A stretch of 57,500 bases of DNA, from NCBI GenBank assembly GCA_018398765.1, contig JAHBMJ010005736.1:1-57500 (forward strand), read 5' to 3'. Origin of the DNA: Chromera velia (lineage: Eukaryota > Sar > Chromeraceae). The notes below the pieces were generated by a model that made no database searches, had not been told where the DNA came from, and saw only the letters and a list, made by a program, of their open reading frames with translations. The first letter of the stretch is position 1; each line of letters begins with the position of its first letter. A program made the translations under genes and the position numbers. Shown here one piece after another: positions 11,801 to 43,525 of this stretch.

Positions 11801-14800
11801 AGTAGCGGAGAAACTTCTTTTTTCTCCTCTTTCAATTTTGCTTTGAAAACAGCGTCCCTTTCGACACGAAGAGTCTGTCGCGGAAGCATGAACATCTGAT
11901 TGAGGCAGTGTCTGTCATTTCTGGGATGGGACTGGCATTTCTTCCCCTCGATGCTCTTTTCTGCTCTCTCGTTCTCCCTCCTGTCTTCTTGCCACGCACC
12001 TATGCGATCAAGCATTTCTTTTCTTTCTTTCTTTCTTTCTTTCGTCCTTCGTTCTTTTTCCCTTGCTGCATGCCCTCATGAGATCCTTTCGCACCTTCTC
12101 GGTGAGTCCTTTCTTGAGTTCCTTCTCGGCAGGCAAGACCAAGTGAGTGATGCGAAGAAGAGACTGCACGTCACGCTCCCTGATGAAACGCGAACCGTCA
12201 TCGAGACGCTGACGGACCCAGGGGACCAGCTGCAGACTCACACAAACACACAAGGAGGGAGCGGGAGAGAGGCATCATGATGCTTCTTCTTTTGCGTTTC
12301 TTTCTCTCATTCGGGGGCAGAGTGAAGGGAAAAGGGAAAACAGGAAAGGGAATGGAAGAGGATATACACCGGAAACTGCATCACAATCAATCATTTCATA
12401 TGCATGTGACTTCAATCAACGGTCAGTTCGAAAATGAAGGCACCGACCAGCAAAAGGAAAAACTCAAACCACTTCATGCACCAGCCAGACAGCCCCCCCC
12501 TTGATGAAGAAAGAAACCCAAAGCCCCCCCCCCCACCTCGCTGCTCAGATCTTCTTCCCACGCCCTCGACCCCGAGATGGCCAGACACACACCACGCCCC
12601 TTCCGACCACCTTCTCCTGCTGCTGCCGCAGCTTGAGTCTCTTCTTCTTTCTGCTTTGCCGCGCCTTGTCTCCTCTTCTTTGCTGCCGAAGACACGCAGG
12701 AGAGCGAATGGAGGTAGGTGCGTTTAGCCATACCGTCTTTAGACTCTCGATTGCCTAGGCAAAAAAACACTTGACGCATGTAGGCGGTCTAGATGCGAGA
12801 AAGCAGGAATGTGTAGGGAAGGAAAAAATCAGCGCCTCGAAATACACCTGCAAGTCTTGGTTGTCCTTCACTTCCGCAAAGGTGCAGGCAGGAAAGCGAA
12901 AAGCACCCAGCTGGAGGGGGAAGGGAAAGCTGACAAGCAGATTGATTGATTGATTGATTGAATGAATGAATGAATGAATGAATGAATGAAAGAATGAATG
13001 ACCGACCTGCACGGCGATCCTCCTCTGCAACACCGGTGACGGAATTAGGAGGGGGCTTCCTTTTCTCTGCTGCCTTTTTGTCCTCTTTCTTCTTCGCCTG
13101 TGGCTTCACTTTCGAGTCCTTCGCCCCCTCCTTTTCCTTTCCAGTCGCAGATTCTTCTGCCCCCCTCCCTCTGCGGGACCGCCCGTTGCCTCTGCCCTTC
13201 CTTTCCTGGCCTTGCTCCTCTCCTTCCTTTTGTTGAACTTCGGCCTCTTGCTGCTGGGTCTTCTTAACACGCTTGGAAGGTCTCTTCTTCCCCCCTTCTT
13301 GTTCTTCTTCTGCTTCTTCAGGAGGGTCCTCTGCTCTCTCCTCCTGTCCTTGCACCTTTTTCGCTTTTCGGGGGCGCTTTGCGAGGCCCTGAAGGGCTGC
13401 AGGGGCGGACACTGGAGGGGGAGCGCGTCTCTTCCTTGCAGGTGCCTGCGGGNGGGGGGGGGGGGCGGATATGGAGGGGACAGAAAGGAAAAGGGGGAAT
13501 GAAGGAATGGACATATAAATTAACTGACATGAGCAGAAGGATACACACAGAATTCAGAATAGAAAAGGACAAGCTTTGAGGCATCAAGAGGCAGAGCGAG
13601 ATGAGCTAGGGATTCTCAATACCCAGACGGCCAGAAGCATTTGCATGCAATCGGTGAGCTGCCCATCAGAGAGAGCCTTCTGGCAACGTCTGCCTGCTTT
13701 TCTGTCTGTCTCTCTGTTTGTGGAGAGAAGGAATTGAGTTTGTGTTTGTGCGTTGATTCGATATGTGCTCCTTCCTTCCTTGTGCCGGCTGACTTTTTCC
13801 TTCTGCTGCGCATTTTCGTCCTCATTGATCCCCTCCCCCTCCTCTTCCTCGGCCGGCGGGGCGGCGAGGTTTGCTGTCTGGTCTCCTCCTGTTGGAGCAG
13901 CGCGGTCGTCCTCCTGTTCCTCTTCTTCTCTCTGTGCAGCTGCAGGCTTCCGGCCTCTTCCTCTGCTGTTGTTGCCACTCGGCTGACTGGCTTTGGCTTT
14001 GGGGGCTGCCTCCTTTACGTTGCCTCTCCCTCTACCCCTTCCCTTCTGTGCTTGTTCGACAGCAGCTTCAACTCCAGGGGGGTCGAAGTCTTCCGTCTCT
14101 TTTCCCTCTTCTCCTTCCTCCTCTTTCTCTTTCTCTACTTTCTGCTCCTTCTTCTTTCGCCCCCCGGAAGTCTTCCCCTTCTGCTGCTGCGGCTGTTTTC
14201 TGTCAGGGGGCCTGGCGGCAGTGCCGTTCCCTGCTTCTGCGGGGCCCTCCGGGGCCTCATGAGGATCCGCAGAGGACTCAGGGGCTTGGGCGACTGCGGA
14301 AGCCTCTGGGTGGGGCACGGCAGCGGGTTCGCGGGGCTCTGAGGCGGCAGCTGCAGCTGGCTTCTGTATTTTCTTTTTGGATTCCTTTTTCTTCTGCGGC
14401 TGCACCGGGGGTCTTTCGTTTTCGTCGTCGTTTTCCTTTCCATTCTCAGCAGCGGCCGCCTCCACTCGTTTCTCCGGCTTTTCCTCTTTCTCTTTCTGCT
14501 TCTGCTTGCTGCTTTCCTTCTTGGGCTTTGCCGGGGCCGCAGAGCAGTCAGGCTGCACTTGATCAGCAGGACCACCCTCGTTGTTTTGCTTTTCTTCTCC
14601 ATTCTTCTTTCTCTTAGACTCTTTGCCCCCTTTCTCCTTGTCTGCCCTCCCCGCCTTCTCTTTGGCCTTGGCCTCTTTTCCTTTCTGCTCCTCTACTTGA
14701 GGCGGGGCAACAGAAGAGGAAGATCCCTCCTCTTCTTGCAGTGAATTACGAGACTGAAGAGGCTGACGCTCCTCATCTGGCTTCTGCCGTTTTCCCCCTC

Positions 14801-15863
14801 TCTCCTTCTCTTTCTGCAAGGCCGCACGGTTCTCACTATCCCCGTCCTCCGCATTTTCATTTTCTTCGTCATCTTCCATGATGGCCTTCTTGTTTGTCTT
14901 CTTGTACTTTGCATTCGGGAAGGGGACCTGGAGATCCAGGTCGCTCTCCTGAGAACTCATGTCTATGTGGAAACCTCCAGGGGCTCTTCCTGCCCCAGCA
15001 GCAGCAGGAGGAGGAGGTGGTTGCTTCTCCCCTGCCTCCTCAGATAGATCTGCTGGGTCTGCAAGAGTCAGGCAGGCAGGCAGGCAGGCAGGCAGGAAGG
15101 AGGAGAGGCGTTCAAATAATCGTTCTTATGGGCTCTCAATCAAGTACTGTTTAACCTTATGTGCTGCAAATGCATTCTGAGTCCAGATGAGACCGCATTC
15201 GAGCTCGACAAGCGTTTCCTGCCTCTCCGTGTCTGTCGACAGACCAGCAAGGCCCATTCCAGATGGTCCCGGAAAGGAGAGTGTACAAGACAGTCAAAAA
15301 GAAACGTTTGTCTCTCAAGTTTTCGACCGACGAAGAAGAGACCGGCAGTAACCGCCAATCCAAGGAAGTCTCTCTCCTGCCTCACCAAACACAAAATGGG
15401 GAACTCAAAAATGCCCATTCTGGAACTCCCTCTTTCTGCATGTCTGCGTCTCTTCTCTCTTTCTTTCCTTCGAACAACAACAAAAGGAACTTCCAACTGA
15501 CTAACCAGGCTGGGAGTTGTCGAATGTGAGGTTGAAGTCGTCCTCTTCCCCTCCCATGCCGTCTCCAAGGAACCCCCCCCCTCCCTCGGGGGGAAACTCC
15601 AAAGAACCCCCTCTCACCCCCTCATCCCCGGCAGCACCCCTCCGCGACACTCCAGAAGCCCTTTCTCTCCTGTTCTCCTGCGAAGCATTCTCGTTTCCCT
15701 CCTGACAGACACACAGATGGACAGACAAACGAACAGACAGACACACATGCAGGCAGGCTGGCACGTAAACCAACGGACAGACTATTTGACTTCTTTTTTT
15801 CTTCAATAAACAGTCAGAAAGGAAGGAAGATAGGTGCAAAGAAAGAACCCCCCCCCAAAACAC

Positions 15864-18050: not shown

Positions 18051-19036
18051 GCTGCCTCTGCACCTCGGTACCGAGAGAGGTGTGATGGAAGGATACAAGG
18101 GGTGAAAAAAAGAAAGGAAAGCCTCAAACTCCCATACTCTATGGCGACGCCCAAACGCGTGCAAAAAAAGATCAAGAAGTATCAGCAAGTGCACCAGACA
18201 CACGGAAGATGAAAGAAGGCAGGACGCCGCAGGAGAACGTGTATAGATTTGAAAAATCTTGATCGGAAATGATTTGAGCAAGACGTATATAGAGTCAGAA
18301 TGAGTGAGATCGTAGTCAGGCATAGTCAGAAATTAGTCAGAATTAGTCAGACAAGGAGACGGCTTCTCGCTCATCCGGCCGCGCGGAATGGATCGATCCT
18401 TCACAAAATTTTGTCGCAAAATGCGCGCGCGCGCGCGCGCTAGCTTCGAGCGCGCGGGGCGAGATGGCTGGAGTGATCGACTTGAGTTGATCAAGCGTGA
18501 GTCGATCGACATGTCCCGACCGCCCTTACCTACAGATGAAGCCGGCCTTTGTATTAAAAAAAGACTGTCTAAGCCGCCTTTCTGCGTTGTGGAGTCTTCA
18601 GGAAAAGTACCTGAGTCCGTTTGTCGAGCCCTGCTACGCTTTTGCTCCGATCTAGTGGCAGTTGGAAGCTGCAAGTCCAACATTTCTCTTCTAGCTCAGT
18701 CTGCAGTGACACATTCCACCTGTTTTACTGCCGTCCCACTGGACGAATGTAGTCGTTTGATTGCTCCTCAGCCTACAAGACCTCGATAACCCTTTTGATT
18801 TCTCTTTCTGTACGCCGTTTAGCTGTCACAGCACCGTTTTTGGCCTTCATCGTTGTGTTTTCTTTGGCTCCCTTGGTCCTTGTGCTGACACAAATTTCGT
18901 TTTCTCTCTCGTCCCTGACACCGGACAGACTGGGTTGAGCGAATGCGTGTGGAAGCTCTGATTCGTCTCTTTACTTCCATTCCGCTCTCTGGTGAACTCA
19001 AGTCGAAGAGTTTGTCGAGCTTGCTGAAGCAAAAGC
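18051..19036. promoter_or_regulatory. divergent promoter region between BRCT and trehalose-synthase genes
   Basis: This interval separates minus-strand ATG 18050 from plus-strand ATG 19037. It holds an (GC)n run at 18424-18441 with nearby GAGCGCGCGGGG and the palindrome ACAAAATTTTGT at 18404. Some of it is probably 5' UTR with introns. A plus-strand frame at 18388-18789 is open but resembles nothing known and is not called. The promoter role is inferred from position. Confidence 0.45.
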
Positions 19037-21785
19037 ATGCAAAAACCAGCAGCTCTCACGGTTCCCGCTTCCTCCCATTTGCTCGATGAAGAGAAGACGG
19101 CAGAACGAATTGGACCCCTGTCAGACGACCACAGCAGAGATGAAGCCTCTGAGGATGAGTGCTCCACTGCCGGGTCAGAGGATCAGGCTCAGGAGCGCCT
19201 CCTGGTGGTTGCCAACCGTTTGCCAGTCACAGTCCGGCAGGATTCCAACGGAGACTACCATTACACCGTCTCCTCCGGTGGCCTGGTGTCTGGGCTCTCC
19301 GGCATTCGTGGTTTCGATATGAGTTGGATCGGGTGGCCGGGAGCGGAGGTTCCTGAGCAGGACCAGCCGAAAGTCATTGAAGAGACTGGGAAGAGAAACT
19401 GCAGACCTGTGTTTTTGGATCAGTTGACTATCGACCTGTACTACAACGGGTTCGCCAACAACGTCCTGTGGCCGCTCTTCCACTACATCGCCCCGCCCAT
19501 TGACACGGACGTGAACGAGAGGACTACGGAAGAGTGGCATGCCTACTGTAAGGCCAACGAGCTGTTCGCAGACGCGATCATGGAGATCTACCAAGACGGC
19601 GACCTGGTTTGGGTTCACGACTATCACTTGATGCTGGTGCCGCGCATGTTGCGGGACAAGAAGGCTGATGTGAAGGTGAGAGAGGAATCCTTGTTAGATG
19701 GGGGACTGGGCGTTTTGTGTGAAGGGTGCAGAAGCAGTTCCTCGAGGATGCATGGGTCTGAAGAGACAGCCGGGGAAGGCGGGGAGAGGGAACGGGAAGT
19801 TACCATCCGAGAGGAGACGCAGGTGTTCGTACCGCTTCGTTCGTCCTTCTGCTTCTTTTCTTGCTGTCCCTTTAGGCCTTGGTCTGTCATCGTTCTACAC
19901 AGAGACGAGCGCGCCTTCTGTGCCTTTTCTTCACCAGAGGTGTCCTCTTTTGCCTGCCTGCAGGTTGGTTGGTTCCTGCATACCCCTTTTCCTTCTCACG
20001 AATTCTTTCGGATGCTGTCGGTACGGACGGAAATCTTGACGGGGCTCCTGTCTGCCAATTTGGTCGGTCAGGAACAAGGGTGGTGGGTTTCCTCCGCGGA
20101 GGGGAGGACTTTGTGTCTGTCTTTTTGATCGCAATCTGTCTATATTCTTTTTGTATATGTGAAAAGTTCTCTTTGCTACTAGAGAGCTGGTCAACAGAGC
20201 TTTACAGTCTGATGAGGGTACAAAAGGTGAGAGAGAACCAGAAGGAGGGGGTTTCATCAGACGGACCTCCCTGACTCTTCACATTTCGATTTTGACCTTT
20301 CCCGCCTTTTTCGTCCTCCGCGGAGCTTCGCTTTCATTCCTGCGATTACAGAAGTCGCGTCCTTTGATCAGACGAAGAAGGTCCGCCAGAGGGGGGCAAT
20401 AAATTCCCATTTCTTCATTTTTTACGACATTCAGCCTGCTCAGCTGACACGTGCAAGTCACCGACACCGAGTGAACTGAAACGAACCTCCCCCCTGCCCT
20501 TCACCGAATTCAGGTCGGATTTCACTCCTACGACTACAACCGTCATTTCCTGAACTCGTGCGGCGCTCTGCTTGGGCTGGAGACTTCGGCCGAGGGTGTG
20601 GATGCCACACCGATTGGTGGGGTGTTCGCGTACTGCTCCACGATCCCGATCGGCATTGAGCCCTCTCAGTTCACTGAGAAGCTCCAGCAGCCCTCTGTGA
20701 TTGCTGCGATTCAGAGGTTGAAGGAACAGTTCGGGGAGAAGAAGGTTCGTGGATCGATCTGTTGGGGGGACAGGCAAACAGACGGGCAGCCCGACGGACA
20801 GACAGACAGAGGAAGGGACAGGAAGAAGAAGAACGGGGAGACAGCAGGCAGGATTTGTGCTTCCTTCCGCATGTAGAAAAGGTGTAAGAGGAAAGAAGGG
20901 TCTGAAGGCAGGGCGTTATCGCGACTCTGTGCGTACCTGGATATCTTCTTGGCATCCTCACTCACAATTGTCGAAGAGTCCCACGAGAAGAGAAGAAAAG
21001 AAAAGAGGATTCGAAAACGACCAATCTTCTCCAGTCGTCTGCCTTTTCTCCTTCTGTGTCTATTCCCCTTCCCACCTGTGTGTTTGCTCTTCTTCCTTTC
21101 TAACTGTGCCTACAGGTTCTCCTGGGAGTTGACAGGCTCGACTACATGAAGGGCATTCCGCACAAGCTGAACGGCTTCGACAGGTTCCTCGAACAGAATC
21201 CCGAATGGGTCGAGCAGTGCGTCCTCGTCCAGCTGGCAGTGCCCTCTCGAACGGTGGTACCGGAATACCAGAGACTGAAGAGCAAGGTCGGTCAGCAGAA
21301 TGATTTTTTTTCGACATGCACTTATGCTCGTGTCGTTGCTCTGTTGGAGGTCGATGGGTTGGTTCAATCATATCTCTTTGGATCTTTGCTCTCTCTCTCT
21401 CTCTTGCAGGTCCATGAGATGGTCGGGCGAATCAATGCAAAGAGGGGGAAGCTGGCGTCGGTGCCGATCCACTACCTTGACAAGAGCCTGTCCTTCGATC
21501 AGGTGAGGAATGAAGGAAGGGAGGCCTTCTTTCTTTGTGTTTCTCTGAAGTGCTCTCCTTCTCATTTTTCCTTCCTGCCTCCATTTTCCTTTCTTTCTTT
21601 TCTTTTCTTTATTTCTTTCTTTCTTTCTTTTCTTTCTTTCTTTCTTTCTTTCTTTCTTTTCTTTCTTCCTTCCTTCCTTCCTTTCTTTCTTTCCTTCCTT
21701 CCTTTCTTTCTTTTCTTTCTTTCTTTTCTTTCTTTCTTTCTTTCTTTCTTTGTCTTTTCTTTTCTTTTCTTTTCTTTTCTTTTTT

Positions 21786-21817
<32 letters not shown>

Positions 21818-24800
21818 TTCTTTCTTTCTTTCTTTCTTTCTTTTCTTTCTTTTTTTCTTTCTTCCTTTCTTTTCTTTCTTTCTTTCTTTCTTTCTTCCTT
21901 TCTTCCTTTTCCTTTTCTTTTCTTTTCTTTTCTGTCTGTCTGTCTGTCTTTCTTTCTTTCTTTCTTTTCTTTCTTTCTTTCTTTCTTTCTTTTCTTTCTT
22001 TTTTTCTTTGATTCTTTCTTTCTTTCTTTCTTTCTTTTCTTTCTTTCTTTTCTTTCTTTTTTTCTTTGATTCTTTCTTTCTTTCTTTGATTCTTTCTTTT
22101 CTTTCTTTTTTTCTTTGATTCTTTCTTTCTTTCTTTCTTTTCTTTCTTTTTTTCTTTGATTCTTTCTTTCTTTCTTTCTTACTTTCTTTTCTTTCTTTTT
22201 TTCTCTGACTCTTTCTTTCTTTCTTTCTTTCTTTGATTCTTTCTTTCTTTCTTTCTTTCTTCCTTCCTTTCTTTCTTTCGTTCTTTCGTTCGTTCGTTCT
22301 TTCTTTGATTCTTTCTTTCTTTCTTTCTTTCTTTCTTTGATTCTTTCTTTCTTTGATTCTTTCTTTCTTTGTTTTTCCTTGCTTTCCTGTGAGAGAGACT
22401 CTGTCGATCTCAACGCTTCTCCGATGGAAAAAAGACGTTCGTTGCCTTGGTGGTTGGCTTAGGTGGAGAGGTGCGTCGGAATCTGCGTCATTTGCCTTGT
22501 CTCATCGTGATTCGGCTTCTTTCATTTTCTCCCTCATGCTTTCCGCCTATCTTTCTGTCTGGGTTGTGCCTTCCCCTCCATTGCCTTTGTCGTCTCTCTG
22601 CCAGTTGGTCGCTCTGTACAGGGTGGCAGACGTCGCTCTGATCACGTCTCTGCGGGACGGCATGAACTTGGTGGCTTTCGAGTACATCGCCTGTCAGGAG
22701 GAGAAATTTGGCACGTTGATCCTTTCTGAATTCGCTGGAGCTGCACAAAGCCTGGGTAGGAAGGGGGCTAGCTGGATTGATTTCAACATGATACTCCTCC
22801 ATTTTTTTCTTTCCGTTTTTTCTTTCTCTCTCTCTCTCGCCCGTTCCCCTTCTCTGTTTGCTTCCTCTTCCGTTTTTCGGGTTTCTTTGCTCGCTGATGC
22901 CAGTTTCATCTTCTTCATTGTGACAAGGCTGTGGTCACGAGCGGAAGACATCTCACGTAGGCTTCTTTCTCTGTCAACACGAAGGAGCGGTCTGTCAGTT
23001 GCGTCCAAACGGGCACCGGCATGTACCTCACCCGTCGATATTTACATGCGTTCGTGGTTGGGCTGATTGGCAAATACAATACACCTTTATTAAGTACACA
23101 CTACAAACAAATGCGCGGCAGGTGCGGGATCGATCCGCATCAACCCCTGGGCTCTCGACGAGGTGGCGGGTGCGATCAAGCAGGCCCTGTCGATGTCGTC
23201 AGAAGAGAGAAAGAGCAGACATGAGTACGCATTCCGGCATGTCCACACTCACACGAGCCAGGTAGGTACGAAGAGACAGAGAGAGAAAGAAGAAAGAAGG
23301 GGGGGAAGTGGCGGGAAGGGAGCAGAGCGGGAGAGAGGGAGTACCGAGATGCTTTTTTCTCCCCTGATCTTGATTGTACTCAACCGGTGCATGATTGTCG
23401 TCAAACTTCCTTCGTATTTGACGTTAGTTAGTGAATGTTCTCTCTCTCTCTCTCTCTCTCTCTCAGTCGATCTTCCCCCCCGGCAGGCAGGCAGGAAGGA
23501 AGGATCCTTTCTCCCTCTCTTCTCCCAACGCCCCGGGGCAGTCTCCTTGTCGATTCTTCCTTCGTGCGGTGTTCTTCCTCCTTCGTGATTCGGTTCTTTC
23601 TGCTGTCGTTGTTCAATGGTGTCCGCCTGTATGTCTTTCTACCTGCAGGCTTGGGCAGAGGCGTTCATCGGGGCGCTTAAGGACGCCTCTGACGACTGTG
23701 AAGAGGTGAGTGCTTCTGCAAAGAGACAGGATGGAAAAAACATACTCACACACAGACACAAGGGGGGGGGGAGAGACGATCGTGCCTGTTGCTATGCGCG
23801 CTGAGTGCAATGAGAGGAGATCCAAATGGCCTGAAGGAAGGAAGGGGGGGACATGCACCGCGTCGTCGATCCCAAATTGTAGCGTCATCCCGTGTGATCC
23901 CGTCTGTCTCTCCGTCTGTTTGTGCGATGACCTCCTGCTTGCTTGCCAAAGGGTGCAGTAGTCTGATGCAGCCATGTACTTCTTTCTGTCCATGTTCTCT
24001 CTACGAACCTTGCAGGTGTGTGCGGCGGTTCCTCCCATCCTCCCCTACGAGCTGGTGCTGGACGGCTTGCAGGGCAGCAAGAGGGCTCTGATAGTGGTGG
24101 ACCTGTTGGACTCCCTCGTTGCAGCAAAGAGCCAGAGGGGTGGGTAGGCGGGTGGGGGGGGGGCTGGGACGCGGTTCTTGTCTGTCTGTGAAACTTTGAA
24201 TTCGACGTTTCCTCCTTGCAACGTCTTTGTTTCCTGTTTGCTGTGCGTCTTCCTCCAGCAGACAGTCGGGCTTCAGTAGGCACTCGTCACTGCATCCTGT
24301 GTTGTTTGTGATTTGCTTATCCACCTTTTGCTTCTTTGGTGTTCAAACGACTGCTTGCAGGTCTGCCGGTACAAAAATTCAAAGCGTTGATGTCCCTCCC
24401 GGGGGTCCTCAGACAGGCGTTGATTACTTTAGGCTCCCATCCGAACACAACAGTGATAGTGACAACCACCCACATGAAGAAGACCGCAGAGAGGCTCCTT
24501 GCTGGCATCCCTGTGTGCGTTGCTGCTGAGAACGGGGTCTTCTTCAGGTGGGTCGGTGAATGCGTCTCTCTCTGTCCATCTGCCGTGAAGTTCCTCTGTG
24601 CTATGCGTGAGCGTTTGTGCATTTGGTGAGCGAGCGAGCGTTGTGGTGGTGGGAATGAATCTATGGGAGCCTAGATTTTTTTTTGTTGCCGACCGTGTGC
24701 CGCCACGAAGCACTTCCGGCCTCTTCGTTCGTTGGTGGACATTTCGTGTGCATGCATCATGTCTTCCTCCCTCCCTCCCTCCCTTCTGGGATAAAGAAAG

Positions 24801-27800
24801 CGTGGTTTTTGGGGGGGAACACCCGTTTGCCTGACCGCCAGTCCGTCGGTCAACCGGGCACAGATCACTCCTTCCTTCTCAGGCTCTTCGCGCCGTTTTT
24901 ACGTTGCAGGGATGCTTCTTATTGATGTGCATTGGTTGGTTTGCTTCCCTTCCCTTCCTAATGTGTTGATGTACGGCTCGTTTTTCTTCCTTCATCTTTG
25001 TTCTTTCTGTCCTCTGGTTGGTTTGATATATTTGTTTTTTTTCTGCTTCTTTCAGAGGGAAGGACGGGGAGTGGCAGCAGATGGTGAGGGATCTGGATAT
25101 TGACGTCACCCAGATGGAGTGGAGAACTTCTGTGGCCGAAACGTTTGAATACTTTATGGTGGGTGGGTGAGTGGGTTTCGCATCATCATCGTTCTTGCCC
25201 GTCCCTGCCTTCTTTTCTGTTCTCTCTGTTTCTTGAGCCTCTAGAGAGACTAAATTCTCCTTCTCTTTTTCTTCAAAGTTCTGTGAGAGAAGTCATGGTG
25301 TGAGTATTCTGTTGGTCCGCTTTCTGGCTCCCTCCGACTGGTCTGCCCTGGCTTGCACTTTGTCTCCACCTGATCTACGCAGCCAGATCCATCTCTGTCT
25401 TCACATGAGGGACGGATCCCGTGCAAATCTGGCTGGCTTCTCACGTCTGTCTATCTGCCTGTCTGTCTGTCTGTCTGTCGACGTGCGTGTGTGTGCACGT
25501 GAACAAACATATCTCCGTGCCTAGTTATCTGTCTGCTTTTCCACTCTCTCAACGGGATGGTGGGTGGGTGCAGGAACGAACTCCGGGGTCGTATATCGAG
25601 GAGGCTTCTTCGTCCCTCACATGGTCAGCCGTTCCGTTCGGTCATTGGCTTTCTTTCTTTGTCGGTCAGACCCTTTTCTCGATTCATGACTGAGTCTCGG
25701 CGTTTGAGACTGGGGAGGCGTGACACATTCGGCGAGTCAGTTATTCGTTTGTTTGTCGTGAGGAAGGAAGGCTATTCAATCGTCACTTTCTCTCTCAGTT
25801 CACCATTTATCTTTCTCGCCTTCACTTATTTCTTCTTCCTCTGTCTGCCCTGCCCCCTCGATCCATCCATCTGCAGGTACTGGGACGACACGCATCCGGA
25901 CTTTGGGCGTCAGATGGCGAGGGAACTGTTGGTCCATCTGTGGGCAGGGCCGCTGGCGTCCTCTACTGCCGACGTCGTGCTCGGACCCCGAACGGTCGAA
26001 GTGCGCCCCCCCAACTGCAGCCGTGCAAAACTGATGGTATGTATGTATATGCGCTTTTGTTCATTCAGATGCATGTGTGCATGTACGCACGCATACCCGT
26101 GAACACGTAAGTTGCGGTGGTTTACATTTACGAGACTTCGTGTTTGCCTTTTCACGCATGGTCTTTAGGCATCCCTGCGCTCTCTCTCTGCTGGGGGAGC
26201 ATCTTACAGACTGACTGATCTGTTCCCTCCCTCTCTCCCCTCCTGGTGTCCGTCTGCTTTGCAGGAGAAGATTCTTGCTGCCGAGTTCAGCAACGACGAC
26301 GACCCGCTGCCGATCGATTTCATTGCTTGCATCGGTAAGCAGTGGTGGGCATAGGAAAATTGGAGGAAGGTCGCTTATTTTCGCGTCCTGCGGGCACACG
26401 GACACGACCAAATGAAGAGAGAGGCAGAGAAACAGAAGGGGGGGGACAGCGCATTTCAAGGGGGGAGAAAGGCTGAAAAGAAAGAAAGAGAATGGGCCTA
26501 CCCGTTGCCTGCCAACTAATCTGCTCCCTCATTCTTCTCGCCGTCTTTCTTGTTTCCTTCCCCCCTCCTTGCTCCTCTCAGGCAACTATCCGTGGCGTGA
26601 TGAGGACGTGTATCAGGTTTTTGAGTCTCTGTGTCAAGACGGCGGGAGGGGGTTTTCGCAGTCGTTCCTCCCCCTTTCTGCTGCATCCGACACTGCGATT
26701 TCAGGGGAGGGGTGCTTGAGTCCCAAAGCAGCACAATTGGACAAGGAAAGGGGGGGAGGGGGGAAGGGGCCGAGAACGCCAGCGGACTCTCAGGCAGTGC
26801 CGAGAAACCCTGGGTTGTCTCTGCCCCTTGCAGTCGATGGAGGAGTTGGGGTGGGGGGAGGGGACGTTTCGGGAAGTGGAAAGAGGGATGAGGGGGGGGG
26901 TGCACAATCTGTTGCTGTAGGGTCGCCAGGAAGAGAAGAAGACGGTAGTAGTAGAAATAGAGGGGGGACAGAGTTGGGCTTGCCACTTGAAACAGAAGTT
27001 CTTTCGACGTCTTCAGGAATTCCCGTTGGGGTGGAGACAGTCGTGTTTAAGAGAAAGGGTGGGGGGGGTGGGGGGAATTCAACAACTGCCGCAGCGTCCT
27101 CGACTCAGCAACCGAGCTTTGGCCTTCATCATAGCTCGTCCCCTGACCTGGTGGACATAGACTCATCAGCGGGGGCATTGCAACAACAACAACCCAATGC
27201 GGGGGGCCTTCCCGACTCTTCATCGCCTATGCCGCCGCTATCAGCTGCTGCTGCCATGCAGCAGTCGAGCAGCTTGAGAGAGACTCTTCAGACAGCCGAG
27301 GAGAGTCCGGCACAGAGCGTGTTGACGGAGACGGCACAGAAAACAGGAATCACTTCCATCTTGACGGGCCCCGGCGCAACAACTGCAGGGGGGCCTCCTC
27401 AAACTGAGCGAGTGGGGGGAAGCGAAACCTCCGAGCCGGTGGGGGTGAGCGCTGCGTCTGTACCGTCCCCTGTGTTAACGGCCTCGAGGGCGAACCACTG
27501 TTCTCCCTCTCAGTTGTCTCAGGCTGAGCCTCAGGATAAAGAAAGGGAAAAGGAGAGGTTGCAAGCAGAGACATCTGCAAGCTGCTTGGATGGAGGAGGA
27601 GGAGGAGGCGGGGCGGCTGGTGGAGCCGTGGGTGCATCGTCAGGGTTGCAGGGGGAGATTGTAGGGATTGATGTGAAAAAATTGGGCTCCGGGGTGGGAG
27701 GACAGGGGGGTGTTGCGGGCACCGATTCGGCAACACCTAGTGGAGGGGGGTACGTGAATGTTTGTATGACTGAAACAAGTGTAGTGCGGGCAATCACGTC

Positions 27801-27974
27801 GGATGACTGTCAACTGTACACCATTTGGTCAGTCAGTCAGTCAATGGAAGTACAGTCCTTTGTTTTTTTTGACATCTGACTGAGTCCAGCAGTTTTTCCT
27901 TGTCTCGCTTTTCACTCTCCTCTGTTTCCCATTTTGCTGAGCTCGTATTCGAATCATCAAAATTCCCCTGCGTG

Positions 27975-28007
<33 letters not shown>

Positions 28008-31000
28008 GACACTGAAGTCGTTTCTTTCTTTACGGGGAAACTGTCGTTGACTGCTCTTGTTTGTCTTTTGCGTCCCCAGCCATCATGGGTAGTTGGTTAC
28101 AAAACGGTTTCGCAGCCTACGGTGGTTTTTCTCTCAAGTCAACAGAGGCGAGAGATAGACAGAGGGTCTCGTCCTCTTACATTTTCTTGCTCACCCGTGC
28201 ACATGCTTCACCATTCCCTTCGTGTTTCCTTTGTTTTTTTTTTTTTTTCGCCCTGCAGCGTCGGTGTGAAGATGTCGAAGGCGAGGTACTGTTTGCCGAA
28301 TGCCGTGCATGCCCAGGTGAGGAGAGGAGAGGAGAGGAGTGCGGTTTTATGAAACCATGAATTGTTGGGCATTAATGAAACTTGGAATGAATGAGAAAGG
28401 TGTGCGTATTCCTCCCTCACAATGCTTTTCAGTCGGCTTTGTATCGGAGCTGCATAGCTACAAAAGATGGGGATCTAAAGGAAGTCGTTTGGATGACGCG
28501 TCTTCTTCCTCCTTTCGTGCTCCTGGCCTCTTTTCCTTCTCCCCGTTCTTGCGACTGTGCTTCATGTGTTCATTTTCTTAACCCATCTGTGTGACTGATC
28601 GACTGTCTTCTTCTCTTCTACTCCCCATGATTGCACATGCAGAGCTTCATTAAGGCACTTGCGTCCAAGCTACCTCGACCTCCAGCGGAGTCCTACCAGA
28701 TGAGGGTGGTGTTGGGACTTGTCCCGCCGCAGTGGGGCCTCCAACAGCAGCATGTGCATTATCATGCGGTGAGTGCCGCCCTCCCAGAGGTCAGCACTGC
28801 GCCTGGACATCTGGAAAGGGGGGTGACTGCTTCGTTTGGTGTTGACAAGGAGAGGGAGTCGTTCGGGTCTGTGGCTGGGGTGAGTGCCTTAACAGGCGGG
28901 GGGGGTGAGTCTGCCCTTCCCTTTGGGGGCAGTGCCATCTCGTCTGTCGACCCGACGGGGATGCTGCGGTCAGTTGCTCCATCCCCACTTCCGATGGTTG
29001 CTTCCGACTCCCAGATCTATGGATCCCAACAGCAGCAGAGCAACAATCTTTCCTCCCCCGTCCCTGCGACTAACACCTCATGCCCAAGCCCCCTGTCGCA
29101 GATACCTCCAATGGGAGGGGGCCCCTTTGCGCACCTAGGAGGGGTGGGGGTGCAGATGTTCGCCTCCACGCATTCACGCACCACCACAACAGGCCCTGAC
29201 CGGGCGACCACCAGCTTTCAAGCTGCGATGGTCACCGCGCCCACGATGTTCAGCCAGCCGAGGCACGGAATTCCGAGAGGCACCTCGGGTTATACAGCAG
29301 CCGCATCTCTTGGGATCCCCGCTGACTCGACCGTCAGCGGCGCATCCTCTGGCATAGTTCCGCCCCCGCCTCTCTCGTTGATGGACCTTTCCTTGGACGA
29401 ACTCAGAGCGCGTCCCCCTCCAGTCGCAGTTTTGGCAGAAAAGCGCCACGCGCGTTTGCAACAGCAGCTGCAACTACAGCTGCAACCCCCAAGCAACCCG
29501 CATGACTCCCAGCAGCATGGGGCGCAACAGACCTCGTTGTCTGTCACGAAGACTGTGCAGACCCTGGGAGTGGGTGCGGCTGCAGGCGGTGCAGGAAGTG
29601 CTGGTGGGAGTGGAGCAGGTTCACACCCTTCTCCGTCCATGGGTGTGTTCAACCAGGGGGACGCGCTCCCTCCTGCACGGCTGGTCGCTATGGGTGCACT
29701 CAAACATCCAAATTTATTGCAGCAAGGGGGCCGCCGTGGGTTGCGCCCTCAAGACGGGGGTGTGGTTCCTCTCCCGTCTCCGACAGGTTCGACTTCTGGG
29801 TCCGTGCAGGCGGTGAGGGATGAGGGGAACCAGTTGAGGGGGGTGCATCAACAAACCCAGCAGCAGCAGGAGAGAGAGACGGCACCCTCGTTGCAAGCTT
29901 TGCCTGAACAGCATCCAGTAACCGTACCGCCGGAGGGTGGAGATAGAATGCAACAGCCCCCCTCTCGCTCCCCTGCCCCCTCATCCGTTGGCTCAGTAGA
30001 GGCAGCTCCCTCTGGAGTAGACCTCTACATTCGTTCTCCTCCAGCACGCAGATCGGTCGCTTTGCCTCAGACCGGCCCTGTAGTGCATCAGTCAGCGCCA
30101 AGCAGCGGGAACGGTGCGGCACAACAACCTGCGCACACCCACTTCCCCACGGTCCCTATAGGGCATCTAGGCCTGTCTGGGGGTATGGGCTACCCTCAGA
30201 GCTCCTTTGGGTTGATCAGCCCTGTGACAATGGTCACAAGAGCGAAACCGTTCCGAGCTAGAACAAAAGGCACGTCTGGCGAGAGGCCGGAAAAAGACAG
30301 CAGGCAAAGACACCCTTCGTTTCCGCATCCCCACCCCCACACGCTGACAGTAGGTAACACTCAGGTCCTGTCCTCTGGAACGGCGCATGGGCCGGGGTTC
30401 GGTTCTCATCTCTACAGCCGTCTTCATCGCAGGGATCGGGACAGGGGTACTCGGGGAGATCAGGGGGGAGAGGGCAAATCTGTGCGAGAAAGAGGGCACC
30501 AGCAGTCGAAGAGCGTGACTCTGGGCGAGTCGACAGTTCTCCCTCCTCGTCCTCCGGCGGGGGGGGGAGCTTCGGGTGTTGCTCCCTCTTGCGAGATGAG
30601 AGAGAGGGAGGCAGACAGGGAAAGGGAAAGGAGAGAAAAGGTACCCTCAGCTGGGGCTGGCGCGTCCGGCCAGCACCATACCCTTCATCACTTCCAGAAT
30701 CAGTCGATCGGGCGCTTATTGCAAGGGGGGAAGGAGGGCAACGTGACTTTTGCAACGGCCGCTTTCGGTCATCAGCAGCCCCTGTACATACACACTGGTA
30801 GTGGGGCGAGTGGTGAAGCTTCGGGGAGGCCAGTAGAAGGGGACAGGGAGAGAGAAAGGGGAGCTGGAGGAGAAGGGAGGGAAGCAACAAGTCGCCATCC
30901 TTTCCCTTCTGCTTCTTCCTCGTCATGGGGGGCCGGGCCCCTTTCCCGTGTCGACACGGAAGGGGGTCCTTTGAGCATGTCCGACACGAGAAGCGCCAAC

Positions 31001-32935
31001 CCCTCCGTTGCGCTCGGGCTTTCTCAGGCGTCTGCGTCCTCATCCTCCGCCCAGCAGCAGCCTGCGCAGCTGTCTTCTCTTGAAGGGGGTGGAGGGGGGA
31101 GGGGAGCTTCCGCAACACTCGCTCCCCCTGATCAGCACCGACAGGCTGGGCGTGGGGCAATGGGCACGGGGGTTGGCAGCAGAACCCGGCCGCGGTGGTC
31201 CACAAGGGCGTCAGAGGACACAATGCACTCCGAGGCTCTGGCATCTCAAGGCTCTGCGGTTGGATTCGGGGTCGCTTCGCAGGTCCGTCCATGTCTGTCT
31301 GTCTGTCTGCCTGTCTGACATATAGTCTGTCTGTCTGTCTGTCTGTCTGTCTGTGTCTGTCAATCTGTTCGCATGCGGCTGGGTGAAGTTGAATGTACAG
31401 TCTTTTCTGATGCCCGCCGTGTTTTCTTGCTGGTACTTTTCCTCACAGAACGTAATTTTCCATTCAGACGCCAGTCTGCTCTGTTTCACGGGTTGCATTG
31501 AGCTTTTTCGAGGTCCTTCTGACTCATTTCCGATATGTTTTCACCCTTTCGATAACTTACACCGTTGCATGCAGAGCCCGTCTGTGTCTGCTGACCCAAT
31601 CGGATTTGAAGCTTCTGGGGAACAGGTAGGGGGTGCAGGAAGGGAAGGAGCCGGAACGGGACCCCCTCGTGTGTGGGAGGGCCAGGACAAGGCGACAGGA
31701 CGTCCCACCCTTCCAGTCGACATAGGGGGGACCGGTGTTCCGCACAGCCTCCCCCCAACGACGACTTTACAGAGCAGCCCAAGTGCCGATCAGGACGAAA
31801 TGCACTGGTCACTTACAAGAGGAGAGGTGGTGCCCCGACAGCAGCAGCAACAGCAGCCGCAACTACAGTCGACGCTCCCACCTTCAATGCCTCCCATCTA
31901 CCCTCAAGCCACCGGTTCGACAGTCCTCCCGTCGCAGTCACCCCCGTCGGACGTTCCACAGCCGCAGTATCATCAGCAAACAGGAGCAAGCGACGATCCA
32001 CTCCCGTGGAGTGGGGGTGCAGCCCCCTCAATGGGCTCTGTGGCGTTTCCATCCTTCAGCACCCCGATTGCTACTGATCCTACTTCAGGACTCCCCGGAG
32101 GTTTGGGTTTGGACAGAGGGGGCGGAGGTGGCATTACGGTCTTTCAGGAATTGGGAGACGGGGAGACGGCACCCCACCAGCAGCAACAGCAGCAGCAACA
32201 ACCCCGTCTCCCTGTCGGTGCGCAAGAAGATCAGTCCCAGGTAAGAAACAATACTTATCCTTCGTGGTCCACCCTCTTTCGACCGTCTCCGCGTGCAGGA
32301 GCCTTCTTTGAAGGGGGGGCCGCCGGGGGTGTGAGTCAGTCAGGGTACTCGACGATGTCGCCTTCCGCTCTGTGGGGTGGGGAGACAAGCCACCACGCCG
32401 GCATGCTCGATTCCCGGCCGTCCGTTGCGGGCCACCTCGCTGCTGCTGGTCAAGAAACAAAGGGTTGGACGGACGTGCCTCCTTATGGGATGGGGATGGG
32501 GAGGTCTCATCCTCGAGAGGTCTCCCCGGCACCCGGTGGGGTTTTTAGGCATCCAGCTGCCGTGTCGTCCTCTGGTGGGGCGGGGGACAGCGGAGGAGAG
32601 GGAGAGCCTGAGAGGGGAGCTCAAGCAATTCGACGATTTTCGGATGTGCGCAGACAGGTGCAAGAAGGAGGTCAGATGCAGACTGTGCCTAGATTCCTCC
32701 AACAGAATCCTATGACCGCGAGTGAATACGCCACTCCATTGCCTGTCCAGTCAACTTATAATTCTGCATCCCCATACCCGATACCTGCCTCTGCTGCTCC
32801 ATCGCAACCACAACCAATCCCCTCACCCCCTCTTCCATCCCTTCCAACCCACTCGTTTTCGTCCATTGTGACCAGCGTTCAAGCACAGCCATCCTGCAGT
32901 ACTCAAGACGGCCGGATTCCTTCTTACCATTTGTC

Positions 32936-32968
<33 letters not shown>

Positions 32969-35900
32969 CGAACGAAGTGCATACCCTCCCGCTGGCCCCG
33001 CCCCCTCTGCTCCTTCGGCCTCTTCAGCCTCACACGTTGTGCCCACATCCCCCTCAGGCGTCCTACACACCCCACCCCATGCAGCAGGTCCCCCCCACGT
33101 GCAGATGTCCCCGTCTCTTCTGCCCCATCTCCCCCCCTCGACAGAGCCCCCCCTACCTCCGTCTTCTGCAGCGTGGCCAAGGAAGCTCTCGTCTTCCAGC
33201 CCCACAGCCGTCGTGCATCACCAGGGTTCCCACCAGAGATTTTCCAATCCTTCCGTTCCCCTTGGCGGGGGGGTTGCGGGAGGGATGCACACTCAAGGGC
33301 ACCCCCAATCCCAACCACAGCCAGCAGCAGCATCGGGGGTGCAAATGCCCCCATTGCCCAGAGACCCTACAGCTGAGAGTGGAGTCGGAGTCCCCCATCC
33401 CCATCCGAACCGTGATCGTGACACTCCGACAAGCCGACGAGTGATGGTGGAGAGGGACATGGATACACTCCCTCCGGGTGCCGCCATCAGTTTTGCCCCC
33501 CCTGCCCCATCCGTGTTAGCGACTGTGCCTCCCGGTTCCTTCGTTTCGCCGCATGGGGGCCAGGATCCCTCCTTGTGGCAGCAGCAGCAGCAGCAGGCCC
33601 GCCGACAATCAGCGTCCGCTTCTCTCCCCCCTATGTATGCAGGGAGTGCGCCTTCAGCGTCCTTCGAGAGCAGTGCAGAGCCCTCCGGTCAGCAAGATCT
33701 GCAAGGGCAGGGGGGAGGGCAGGCTCAGACGCAGTCCGCGACCTCTCACGAAGATCTCGCGTTGGCTTTTGGACCCTCGATGTCGACGGAAACGGGGGCA
33801 GTGCACGTGCCGCTCTCAGCTGGTCAGAGGGCGAGCCAGAGTAGCCAACGGAGTGGAAATGCGAATGCACATCATCCTTCTTCTTCTGGCTCCCCTTTGC
33901 TCCCGCCTATCAGCAGGGGCGTTGAAGTAGCACAACAGCAACAGCAACTGCCCTCAGACCAACACCGAGCAAGAGCATCCTCACGCGACACGCCCCATTC
34001 GCGTATGTCCACTGCCTCGGCGTCTGTCCAGCATGCAGCTCCTCACGCTGCTGTGGAGGCTGGGAGGTCTGCCCTCCCTCCCCGGGGGTTCTCTGCAGCA
34101 GCCATGCAGCACCAGCAGCAGCAGCAGCAGCTCGATCCCAGAAGTGGGACGGCATCGGAAGGCGCAAGCAGTCACTCACAACCGCCGTCAACGCAGCAGG
34201 CACAGGCACAGCAGAGTCACCCCCCCATCGGATACAGCGCCCCGGGGATGGCTGTGTCGATGCAGCAACCTCCGCCCTTGCAGGAGCATCAAAACCCCGC
34301 ACAGCAGATCGCGTCTCCAGGAGCACGAGGGAAAGACCGAGAACCGCCGACTGTCGACTTGATTCAGTCGGATTTCAGACAAACGCATGCAGGCATTTCC
34401 ATGCAGCAGCAGCAACAACTCGGAAGTCCACCCAGGCCGACCGTGAGGCATCCGCTGATGGATCATGGGGCGGTCGCCCACCCATCCGCAATCCAGCTGG
34501 CTCAGCAGACTCAGGCTGTAGCAGCAGCAGTCGAGCAGCCGCATCAGCAGGAACCGCATTCACACCACATGTCTGCCGTTGCTGCCCCCCCCCCTCCACT
34601 TCAAACACAGGGTAGCGACAACATCCACGCTTCAGGATCCAGACCGACCAGCCCCATTGACGTCCAGAGGCAGCCACTCCCTCTCCCCCTTCCTCAGCTC
34701 CCTCCTGCCGCGCCCCAACCCCCTCTCCCTCCCCCCCCGATGCAAGCTCAAGCTCATCCCCCCCACGCACCCCACCAACACCAACCGCATCATCACCCAC
34801 CCCCACCCAGCAGCCACAGCCAGACGGAGACATCACCTCACGGCCCATCTGTTGCAACTGCAGATGCCGCTTTCGGTTTGGGGGCTTCAACATCTGCATT
34901 TCCCGTCCCGTCGCAGCAGCAGCAGCAGCAACAGACACCGAGTGCCCACACGGCGTCTGTCTCTGCTTCTGCTCGCCTCCCCCCCGTCCACCCACAGTCC
35001 TCTCCTCCATCTCAAATGGTGCCCCCCCGGGTCCCGCGCGTGCCCCAACCGGATCAACTACCGAGACCGCAGAGCTCTGTAACAAGTGCTGCAGCACTAA
35101 CACACTCAAGCCATACACCCCCCTTGCCGAATTCTCACTCCATTCCGATGCTTCCTCCAGCTGCAGAGAGAGATGCGACCCTGCCAATTCCCCCAGCCGG
35201 TCCACACGTACCGCGCCAGAGGACTTTCGCCAATGACATCCTGCCTACTGAGACGATCTCTTCCCGTGCAAACACGGCGCCCCCCCCGGCCTCTTCTTCG
35301 TCTATGCACATGCAGTCGCCGCCCCCGTCGATCCATCAGATGCACCCAGTGGCGGGAGGAGAAGGTGAAAGCAACATCTATCTGGCTGAGGTGCCCGGCC
35401 AACCTGGTTTCTACATGCAGGTAGGTAGGTGTGTCTGCATGTGCATGGGTTCGGCCTGTCGTTTCAATTCCTTCGGAGACCCGTCAGGAGTTGGCTTTCT
35501 TGACGCACTGATTTTTTATTTAAGTCCTGCCATCCAATTGACCGAGAGTTGCATGAACTGAATGATTTCTCTCTCTTTGACCGAACATTTGCAAATCCCT
35601 CTCTTCTCTTCTGTTTTCTTCCTGCAGGTGCGGCTTGTTGGTCAGATCGCCAGCCGCCCATCTCCGTCGGTGACGCACGCACAGTCATACCAGGGTGCCC
35701 CCTCGAGCGTGGCTGCTGCCGGGGCCGGTGTAGACCAGCAGTCTCTTTACGGGGACATGGACGGGGTCTCTGTTGCCCAGGCTTCTGAGTTTGCTGACGT
35801 CGGAGGGGCCCACAGAGGACAGCAGCCAGCCTCCGCCACCACCACACCAGCACGCATGCGTCCAACTGTTTCCGGAGCCACGCCCCAAAATCAGCAACAG

Positions 35901-37139
35901 CAGCAGCAAGCCGCCGTGCAGATGCAGACAGCGCATGCGGCGCCGCTTTCTTACAGCTCTACACAGCCGCCAGGATTCGTGCAGCAGCAACAGCCTGGCC
36001 ACGGGCCTCCTCAGCAGGCTGTCGGGACGGTATCTCATCCAACAAGTCAGATCGTCCCTCCAACCCAAGACTCTCTCACCATGCTCCAGCCTCAGCATGC
36101 ACCAGCCCCCTCCCCTCCCCAGCCGCAGTCACTCGGCATTCTACAACTCCAGCAGCAACAGGAACAACATAACGTCCACTACGCTGCCCCCCCCCCGTCT
36201 GCACGACCCCCACCGCATCAGTATGCACCCCCTTCGGCGCATCTGCCTCCGACACCAGTTGCCCCCCACGCAATACCCATGCAGCAGCAGCAAACGCAGT
36301 CTCAACCGCAACCGCAGCCAGCGCCTCCCCACACACCTCCCCAGAACCCCCTGACCCCTCCCCTGGTCCCTGTGCAACAGCAACAACCCCTGCCTCTCCA
36401 GCATCAGCCTCAACCGCAGGCAGTGCACGCTGCCCCTCTCCCTCACGGCCAACCTCAACAGACTTCCATCCCTCCCACACCACAAGCCGTGCAGCAGCAG
36501 CAGCAACAGCAGATGCACTACGCACCGCAGCCTCAACCTCCTCAGCCTCAGTTCGTGCAAATGGCGTCTGGACCTCCGGCAACTTCTGTCCTCTCACCCT
36601 CCCTACCACCAAGCACTGTCGGTGCCCCTTCCCAGGAACCGTCTCTGCCTCACCCGCATTTGTCCCTTCCTCCACAGCCACAGCAGCAGACCCAGGCTCA
36701 CCCTCTTCCCCTTGTGTCCACCTCCCACCAGACTGGACAGCAGGGACAGGGCGGAGGAGGAGGAGGGCCGCCTCATGCATACGCCCCCTCTTCGCACCTT
36801 CCCTCAGTAGAGCTTCAGCACGCGCCGCCTGCCACAGCATTCCACGTCCACATGCCGCCGCATCAAGTCGCCCCTCCACCTCAGTCAATGCAGCAGCAGC
36901 CGCCGGAAATGCAGCAAATTTACCAGCAACAGCAGCAGGCAGAAGTGCCTCAAATGTACCAGCAACAGCAGCAGGCAGAAGTGCCTCAAATGTACCAGCA
37001 ACAGCAGGCGCTGCCGCAGACGACGATGGATTTGCAACAGCCAAACCCTCAACAAGCGATGCCGCCGCAGCCACCGCAAGAACCTCACCTCTCTCAGCAG
37101 CACGTCGCATCTGCAGAGCAGCAGCAACAGCAGCAGTAG
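19037..37139 (+). CDS. giant trehalose-6-phosphate synthase / phosphatase-like fusion protein
   Basis: Nineteen exons join without phase conflict: 19037-19675, 19964-20062, 20514-20744, 21116-21286, 21410-21502, 22605-22755, 23122-23261, 23649-23705, 24016-24139, 24361-24547, 25056-25158, 25574-25623, 25877-26036, 26265-26334, 26582-27827, 28259-28316, 28643-31282, 31575-35420, 35628-37139. Residues about 55-527 are a GT20 synthase making trehalose-6-phosphate from UDP-glucose and glucose-6-phosphate: [49 protein letters not shown] (R330, K335) and [13 protein letters not shown] are intact. Residues about 528-1080 are HAD phosphatase-like, but motif I is VVDLLDSLV instead of DxDGT and motif III is GNYPWRDED instead of GDDxxDE. 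This suggests an inactive, regulatory domain, as in plant class II proteins. About 390 residues interrupt it. The remaining ~2,750 residues are Gln/Pro/Ser/Gly-rich. Transcript data could still split the tail off. Confidence 0.88.
21590..22378. repeat. about 790-bp (TTTC)n polypyrimidine array
   Basis: Almost pure TTTC/TTTTC repeats, with CTGT and GATTC variants, fill most of the intron between exons 21410-21502 and 22605-22755 of the trehalose gene. The strand is essentially all pyrimidine. Long Phe/Ser or Lys/Glu open frames here are artefacts. Confidence 0.95.
32938..32966 (+). repeat. coding (CAG)n poly-glutamine tract
   Basis: A CAG run encodes nine or so consecutive Gln in the long tail of the trehalose gene. 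Many shorter CAG/CAA tracts lie on either side, consistent with slippage-driven growth of the tail. Confidence 0.85.
36921..37010 (+). repeat. 36-bp in-frame coding repeat
   Basis: The 36-bp unit starting TACCAGCAACAGCAGCAG occurs at 36921, 36957 and 36993 (last partial). It encodes [12 protein letters not shown] in tandem near the C-terminus of the trehalose gene product. Copies are nearly identical at the DNA level, so the duplication is recent. Confidence 0.9.
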
Positions 37140-43100: not shown

Positions 43101-43525
43101 GCCATGTGCCGCACATAAGCACTCCCCACCACACATCCCTCCCTTCGTAACCCAAGGAGCCGACCTGTTCCTGGAGGTTCCCTACGTATCCAATCCACAG
43201 CCGTAGAGGCTCCAGGGCTGCCAACAGAAGAGCGATGGCAACTGCAGAAGGACGCCAGCCTCTGGTGGCAAAGTAGTCGTCACGGGGCAGCACCTCATAC
43301 TGCAGTGAAAGCAGACAAAGGCATGTGAAGGAATTAGAGTGAGCAACAGATGAGAAGAGGAAGTTTGGGACACTCTTTGTCAAGGCTGCTGACCTTCCAG
43401 ATCGCAGTTGCAATTACAATGACGAAGAGAGGAATTTTGTACAATACGTCATAGAAGAGAAGGGATTGCAGGAGCACTGAGCTTTGGGGCACCGTCTCAA
43501 CAACAGTAGGTCTGAAGCCGTTCAT
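40186..43525 (-). CDS. TMEM17-like ciliary transition-zone membrane protein with long C-terminal extension
   Basis: Seven exons join in phase on the minus strand: 43394-43525 (MNGFRPTVVETV), 43165-43299, 42363-42517, 41753-41783, 41489-41627, 41154-41270 and 40186-41009, giving about 510 residues. Four hydrophobic segments occur in the first ~145 residues (YKIPLFVIVIATAIW, AIALLLAALEPLRLWIG, LFLYLMCSFF with AAVILLLLL, and QLFFYVTEALVG). The sequence RLWIGYVGNLQEQVPQL matches the strongly conserved core of the TMEM17/TMEM216-type family, known from the MKS/B9 complex at the base of cilia. The family is usually about 200 residues. Here an extra ~350 residues follow: Gly-rich, then Arg/Ser/Glu-rich and probably disordered. 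Several donors are GTC-type. The small exon 41753-41783 is the least certain. Confidence 0.72.

Follow-up and report, generated by a model that had tools for sequence, protein, structure and literature searches.

A trehalose-6-phosphate synthase gene of Chromera velia with a degenerate phosphatase module and a very long low-complexity tail

The stretch of Chromera velia DNA described here (the window: positions 1 to 57,500, forward strand, of contig JAHBMJ010005736.1 in assembly GCA_018398765.1) contains a gene, hereafter gene A, in which a trehalose-6-phosphate synthase (TPS) is joined to a giant low-complexity tail; this observation, made in a preliminary description of the sequence, is confirmed. 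Rebuilt independently from splice sites and homology, and without the exon list of that description (which gave only three junctions), gene A has 19 exons with 11,577 nt of coding sequence and encodes 3,858 residues in one frame. It runs on the plus strand from an ATG at 19037, with an in-frame TGA upstream at 19025-19027, to a TAG at 37139, and all 18 introns are GT-AG and in phase. Exon count and length are identical to those proposed earlier, and the three junctions named there (27827/28259, 31282/31575 and 35420/35628) are exon edges in our model as well. The long tail also stands, at 2,665 residues (residues 1194-3858), slightly shorter than the roughly 2,750 first put forward. The fusion of TPS and tail holds too, but its earlier summary as a TPS fused to a tail left out a trehalose-phosphatase (TPP)-like domain following the TPS domain and a 376-residue insertion, and was silent on the degeneracy of the TPP domain and on its being split by that insertion.

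The TPS part of gene A is well preserved. PF00982 (GT20) matches residues 54-519 over profile positions 2-472 of 473 (E 1.2e-173), the PDB match of this part is 5hvm (E 3.1e-153), and NF011071, the bifunctional TPS/TPP family, matches residues 53-770. Aligned to 84 bacterial TPS-TPP proteins (4 of them from plasmids), the TPS part keeps 78 of the 89 columns conserved at 95% or more. All four TPS motifs are present (NRLP, HxPFPS, DRLDYxKG and RDGMNLV..E), which contain the active-site residues of OtsA structures. PF02358 (TPP) matches residues 585-774 (profile 24-205 of 235, E 3.5e-29) and stops just ahead of the low-complexity insertion (residues 781-1156; G 18%, S 14%, A 10%). In its TPP part the same alignment has 32 highly conserved columns, of which gene A matches 15, and the catalytic motifs are lost, DYDGT having become DLLDS and GDDxxDED having become GNYPWRDED. 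An unspliced intron in exon 15 was considered as the source of the insertion and ruled out, the base composition being exon-like and the insertion lying within a 487-codon open run. With intact TPS motifs and lost TPP motifs, gene A is likely to be a class-I-like TPS, that is, an active-type TPS domain with a degenerate TPP module; the TPP motifs whose retention marks class II are absent. Judged by its sequence, it is a new variant of the class-I-like TPS.

A gene boundary between exons 16 and 17, which the preliminary description had named as the finding that would assign the tail to another gene, is not borne out, as the final TPP helix continues into exon 17. Beyond the insertion the TPP fold picks up again late in exon 15 (YTI) and carries on through exon 16, with the last TPP strand in exons 15-16, and the first ~10 tail residues complete the final helix. 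When the insertion is removed, the Pfam TPP match lengthens from profile position 205 to 230 with exon 16. A profile of the TPP C-terminus was built from 83 of the 84 bacterial proteins (one, too short there, was dropped) and run on the window's 1,911 six-frame open reading frames (ORFs) plus two spliced versions; the exon-16 ORF ranked first (E 6.5e-4 for the whole sequence, 0.0081 for the best domain). An ungapped 8-residue continuation of the profile's final helix was then scored at 586 acceptors from 28340 to 37000, and acceptor 28643 (SFIKALAS) came first with 4.5 bits, the runner-up reaching 0.3. With the insertion cut out of the query, all five tblastn matches to plasmid-borne TPS/TPP span the junction (query position 298 of 318), ending at query 307 or 315. 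Finally, a paralogue in the same genome, paralogue C (described below), has a TPP end, YTVTVGRKPSQARS ... FLNDSEEVSELLEGLASQQ, that aligns with the exon 15/16/17 sequence of gene A; its domain end, YTVTVGRKPSQARS ... FLNDSEEVSELLEGLASQQRQ, supports the junction, the paralogue reading SELLEGLASQQ at the exon 16/17 stretch.

Several results speak against the junction. Acceptor 28643 fails a pyrimidine-tract filter that 55 of the 586 acceptors pass, and by a splice matrix trained on introns 1-15 it ranks just 55 of 681; in local HMMER the start of exon 17 brings no rise in the profile score, ranking 45 of 587 as against 6 for exon 16 alone, and adding exon 17 does not improve the Pfam TPP score. 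The filter and HMMER results ran contrary to expectation. Because the homology of the TPP C-terminal helix crosses the junction, we nonetheless place exon 17 in the TPS gene: the TPP profile, the acceptor rank and paralogue C lead us to reject a boundary here, and a single gene very probably continues through exon 17.

The tail frame has the stop and repeat content of a maintained coding sequence, and the earlier claim of selection on the open frame finds support in both. Over the 2,665 codons of exons 17-19 the frame is free of stops, where base composition predicts 72 and the two alternative forward frames contain 44 and 39. By exon, the frame has none and the alternatives have 25 and 16 (exon 17), none against 15 and 20 (exon 18), and only the terminal stop against 4 and 3 (exon 19). 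In 200 order-2 Markov simulations of 28643-37139 no stop-free run was longer than 712 codons, whereas the real sequence has runs of 1,411 codons (including intron sequence at both ends) and 895 codons; when runs with N are excluded, nothing longer than these two occurs in the 133 kb of this genome compared. The tail exons contain 20 CAR runs of at least four codons, every one of them in the Gln frame, although the Ser and Ala readings are equally stop-free. CAA is present in 16 of these runs, and three lie within copies of one 36-base repeat, so that the runs are not fully independent; a 36-base in-frame tandem repeat occupies 36890-37007 in exon 19. Perfect period-4 repeats of at least three copies are absent from the tail exons (7,998 nt), whereas the introns (6,526 nt) hold 40, many of which belong to a single CTTT array in intron 5. 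The tail exons do hold one dinucleotide run and 16 homopolymers of at least seven bases (introns: 20), as well as 2.1 copies of an imperfect period-16 repeat.

Codon usage weighs on the other side. The synonymous log-likelihood per codon is 0.003, -0.033 and -0.018 in exons 17, 18 and 19, vs 0.173 for residues 1-780, and every tail exon is outscored by some other frame, up to 0.247 (exon 19, reverse strand); this test ran contrary to expectation. The insertion, with TPP sequence on either side of it in one exon, has a tail-like score of -0.030. The want of a coding signal in codon usage, the stop-poor nature of GC-rich, CAG-rich DNA and the long antisense ORFs of the region (411 and 394 codons) would all suit an artefactual frame, either non-coding sequence open by chance or an annotation drawn across unrelated DNA. 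The stop counts, the run lengths relative to simulation and the phasing of the CAR runs despite stop-free alternatives make such an artefact very improbable, and a chance open frame is rejected.

For exons 18 and 19 the evidence is of a different kind. Phase 0 is kept across introns 17 and 18. Their T content, 0.38 and 0.37, resembles that of the remaining introns and exceeds the 0.15-0.19 of exons 17-19; intron 16 is likewise T-rich relative to the exons. In the splice matrix the donors of introns 16, 17 and 18 rank 10, 9 and 2 of 463, and the acceptors 55, 12 and 1 of 681. Splice signals, intron-like composition and phase hint that exons 18-19 may be part of the same transcript. However, in-frame ATGs at 28637, 31569 and 35562, just 5' of exons 17, 18 and 19, make later starts possible, and no domain homology joins exons 18-19 to TPS, both of which weigh against a single gene. 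Exons 18 and/or 19 might thus be one or two separate downstream low-complexity genes, with TPS ending at a stop at 31316 or 35559. The good splice signals, the T content and the phase held over both introns all count against separate genes, and ATG 31569 sits within acceptor context; we regard the separation as improbable and consider it likely that a single gene continues through exon 19 (Table 1).

Table 1. Parts of gene A and the exons that encode them (window coordinates)
Feature	Position	Strand	Basis
53-residue N-terminus and GT20 TPS domain (residues 54-519)	19037..23681	+	splice model, PF00982, 5hvm match, motifs
Exons 1-4	19037-19675, 19964-20062, 20514-20744, 21116-21286	+	splice model
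Exons 5-7 and 5' part of exon 8	21410-21502, 22605-22755, 23122-23261, 23649-23681	+	splice model
TPP-like domain, catalytic motifs lost	23682..26646	+	PF02358, column conservation
Rest of exon 8, exons 9-11	23682-23705, 24016-24139, 24361-24547, 25056-25158	+	splice model
Exons 12-14 and 5' end of exon 15	25574-25623, 25877-26036, 26265-26334, 26582-26646	+	splice model
376-residue low-complexity insertion inside TPP domain, in exon 15 (26582-27827)	26647..27774	+	length, composition
Last stretch of TPP domain: exon 15 up to 27827, exon 16 (28259-28316), exon 17 codons 1 to ~10	27775..28672	+	TPP C-terminal profile, acceptor rank, paralogue C
Exon 17, tail part 1, 880 codons	28643..31282	+	open frame
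Exon 18, tail part 2, 1,282 codons, poly-Gln	31575..35420	+	open frame, splice ranks
Exon 19, tail part 3, 503 codons and TAG, poly-Gln at end	35628..37139	+	open frame, splice ranks

The tail is rich in Gln, Pro, Ser, Ala and Gly (14.6% Pro, 12.5% Gln, 12% Ser), and its Gln+Asn content climbs from 9.0% (residues 1211-2073) to 24.5% (residues 3356-3858). Low-complexity fractions of 0.77-0.99 compare with 0.12 in TPS and order-promoting residues of 0.16-0.19 with 0.39, and the maximum 19-residue mean hydropathy is 1.04. The charge-hydropathy relation gives an equivocal picture, with only one of three tail parts (residues 3356-3858) on the disordered side. None of the three tail exons matched Pfam (E<=1) or NCBIfam (E<=0.1), exons 17 and 18 had no PDB match at E<=0.1, and a 303-residue stretch of the exon-17 tail had no tblastn match among plasmids; within the genome, the opening 2,000 bases of exon 17 occur only once. 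The tail is also strongly depleted in Lys, with 17 Lys vs 125 Arg (residues 1194-3858); from base composition alone ~54 Lys codons would be predicted, and the two alternative forward frames contain 71 and 44.

The genome assembly (177.8 Mb in 4,040 contigs, the window lying on contig C3808) contains further genes of this type. A PF00982 search gave at least 16 exon matches on five contigs (C3808, C1180, C1612, C4017 and C430), and a PF02358 search gave at least five matches and added contig C1892; the latter search missed gene A's own degenerate TPP exons, and degenerate copies elsewhere may escape it too. An initial contig scan with the window protein pattern-matched 21 stretches, none of which was confirmed. 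The same TPS exons occur at the ends of C1180 (1-2374) and C1612 (25222-27604), probably an unmerged overlap representing one gene, paralogue B. Paralogue C is on C4017, interrupted by a run of N, and paralogue D is on the minus strand of C430. Among these four TPS-type genes, gene A alone keeps all TPS motifs examined: a TPS motif of B is degenerate (RCDSLAG), C is degenerate with the corresponding K replaced, and D is degenerate as well (IDTLDYIK, NTVFPS). TPP motif IV is kept in B (GDDRSDEDMF) and C (GDDRS and RSDEDMF), B having DHEGT in place of the usual DYDGT. The TPP motifs of D are degenerate too (VGNFLMRDEEIF), including motif IV, and D is the closest TPP-domain match found to gene A (a 42-residue segment, 45% identical). 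A stand-alone TPP gene on C1892 (14599-17077, minus strand) carries DYDGT and GDDVTDED motifs and, on the strength of these, is a likely trehalose-phosphatase of this genome.

Low-complexity sequence follows the DED helix, the site of gene A's insertion, in all four TPS-type genes. In D, the end of the TPP domain (LLTRLAR) continues unbroken in one ORF into 188 low-complexity codons, followed by the first donor scoring >4. More Gln-rich ORFs lie downstream, two of which hold three CAR runs, all in the Gln frame; no in-phase splice chain was established for these ORFs, which may represent further exons. In B, splicing between a donor scoring 9.4 and an acceptor scoring 7.8, both of phase 0, would end the gene ~50 residues past the domain, and unspliced it would end 34 residues past.

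Elsewhere in the window, 51129-51608 (plus strand) encodes CCDC81-type HU domains 1 and 2 (PF14908, E 1.5e-20; PF18289, E 4.8e-6), a cilium/centrosome-associated family, and 54617-55396 (plus strand) matches reverse transcriptase with stops read through (PF00078, E 1.7e-20), consistent with a retroelement remnant or copy. A Transmemb_17 match at 43153-43320 (minus strand) falls below threshold (22.3 bits vs a cut-off of 26). Three other long low-complexity ORFs are present: 13587-15125 (minus strand; Glu/Ala/Lys-rich, 513 codons), 8864-10072 (minus strand; Glu/Ala/Ser-rich, 403 codons) and 5511-6404 (plus strand; Gly/Gln-rich, 298 codons). Outside gene A, the plus strand carries three CAR runs, at 5655 and 6006 in the last of these ORFs and at 14996 opposite the first. 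Within gene A, the CTTT array of intron 5 is degenerate and ~800 bp long (21589-22386), and other intronic period-4 arrays lie at 25445, 27967 and 31292. Rfam gave no match on the window at gathering thresholds.

The best overall explanation, and one we hold to be reasonably probable, is a single gene encoding a class-I-like TPS core with a very long low-complexity arm. The TPS domain, with its active-site motifs, would make trehalose 6-phosphate (T6P), perhaps as the genome's principal or sole T6P synthase, and the dead TPP module, split by a low-complexity loop, would be regulatory. The final TPP helix would run directly into the 2,665-residue arm, which would be disordered and would have grown by in-frame repeat expansion in a Gln-permissive genome. 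As to function, we tentatively suggest, at somewhat less than even chances, that the arm is flexible and unfolded and provides weak multivalent contacts, whether in self-association of the enzyme or with paralogue D, the tailed pseudoenzyme; an arm that is for the most part tolerated ballast has a similar or higher probability. Condensate formation by the tail or scaffolding of partners, raised in the preliminary description, is something that we too could only infer.

The ballast alternative, to which we give close to an even chance, holds that the tail is truly coding and neutral, a product of in-frame trinucleotide or longer expansions in a permissive genome, with selection removing only the stops and frameshifts that would destabilise the message. 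Genome-wide, overlapping (CAR)6 matches number 1,707 + 1,874 vs 67 + 58 for the reversed pattern; because of this excess, long Gln runs appear to be a habit of this genome, and the tail may therefore be a tolerated expansion, which detracts from any special role. That paralogues B, C and D also have low-complexity sequence where the TPP domain of gene A is interrupted fits with this, as does the lack of enzyme-type synonymous codon bias in the tail. Moreover, tblastn of the whole gene A tail and insertion against the paralogue stretches gave no match, the tails of A and D being unalignable, which likewise counts against a specific function. The 2,665 stop-free codons and the mixing of CAA and CAG in 16 of the 20 Gln runs suggest, on the contrary, long-standing maintenance. 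The (CAR)6 density of the tail is also ~100x the genome mean (17 overlapping matches vs 3,581 in 177.8 Mb), a ratio that is no test, as the window was picked for its tail. A more specific proposal, by analogy with yeast SNF5, is that the arm drives a Gln/His-rich assembly of T6P synthase, perhaps responsive to pH or starvation. The 12.5% Gln and 126 His of the tail and the existence of a second tailed paralogue are compatible with it, and in SNF5 a Gln-rich, His-containing sequence is reported to act as a pH sensor (PMC8890752). The likeness is one of composition only, however, and the His content across tail parts, 4.1-5.6%, is near the 3.4% of the TPS domain, and we consider this assembly unlikely. 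Still less likely, in our estimation, is that T6P would be made in an assembly which depends on the arms and joins an active TPS (A) to an inactive one (D), apart from the phosphatase step and maybe sensing pH or carbon state; in this reading A and D both have long unfolded Gln/His-rich arms after a dead TPP domain, and a paralogue with intact TPP motif IV has none. If the sole T6P synthase of a photosynthetic relative of apicomplexans does carry an unfolded arm of 2,665 residues and has a tailed pseudoenzyme partner, the system would offer a clean case of regulation by an arm vs tolerance of one, and the presence in one genome of paralogues with a tail (A, D) and with a short end (B) makes these alternatives testable. 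If the arm is neutral, gene A would be a useful example of a core enzyme extended without loss of its active-site motifs.

In plants, T6P is a sugar-related signal, and plant class I TPS proteins are not known to have a 2,665-residue tail or a 376-residue TPP insertion. The motif pattern of gene A is otherwise that of the plant class I proteins (AtTPS1, tomato SlTPS2 and SlTPS8), which combine an active-type GT20 domain with a TPP-like domain that is short of some active-site residues and presumed inactive (PMC9569751) and belong to a grouping of TPS proteins into classes I, II and III (PMC1769515). With the apicomplexan T6PS-TPases of Cryptosporidium and Toxoplasma (TGGT1_297720), gene A shares the joining of TPS and TPP in one large polypeptide, typically >1,400 residues in the Apicomplexa; those proteins are described as class II bifunctional (PMC2935371), whereas gene A has lost the TPP motifs and kept the TPS motifs. 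The Toxoplasma protein is phosphorylated at sites outside its enzymatic domains (PMC11414933) and has a CBM20 domain, for which residues 1-780 of gene A gave no match. In a genome comparison, C. velia introns are larger than those of Vitrella, and trehalose synthesis is reported missing only in Plasmodium among the species compared (PMC4501334). Our literature search found no paper joining trehalose-6-phosphate synthase with Chromera; among the papers listed on TPS and polyglutamine/disorder or condensate/phase separation, none dealt with a TPS that bears such a tail, as judged by title and start of abstract, and PMC6668581 contains no passage on trehalose.

Domain order and the C-terminal TPP strand-helix are shared by gene A and the bacterial TPS/TPP proteins of Hymenobacter and Spirosoma (NF011071); unlike gene A, the four examined are 739-757 residues long, retain DYDGT and GDD(R/T)TDED, and have neither insertion nor tail. 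The Gln-rich region of yeast SNF5 resembles the tail of gene A in being His-containing and of low complexity, but it is 42% Gln and was tested as a pH sensor (PMC8890752), whereas the tail is 12.5% Gln and known from sequence alone. Paralogue D, in the same genome, is like gene A in its degenerate TPP motif IV, its low complexity at the insertion site and its low-complexity tail; it differs in its degenerate TPS motifs and in having a tail seen over 188 codons in one ORF.

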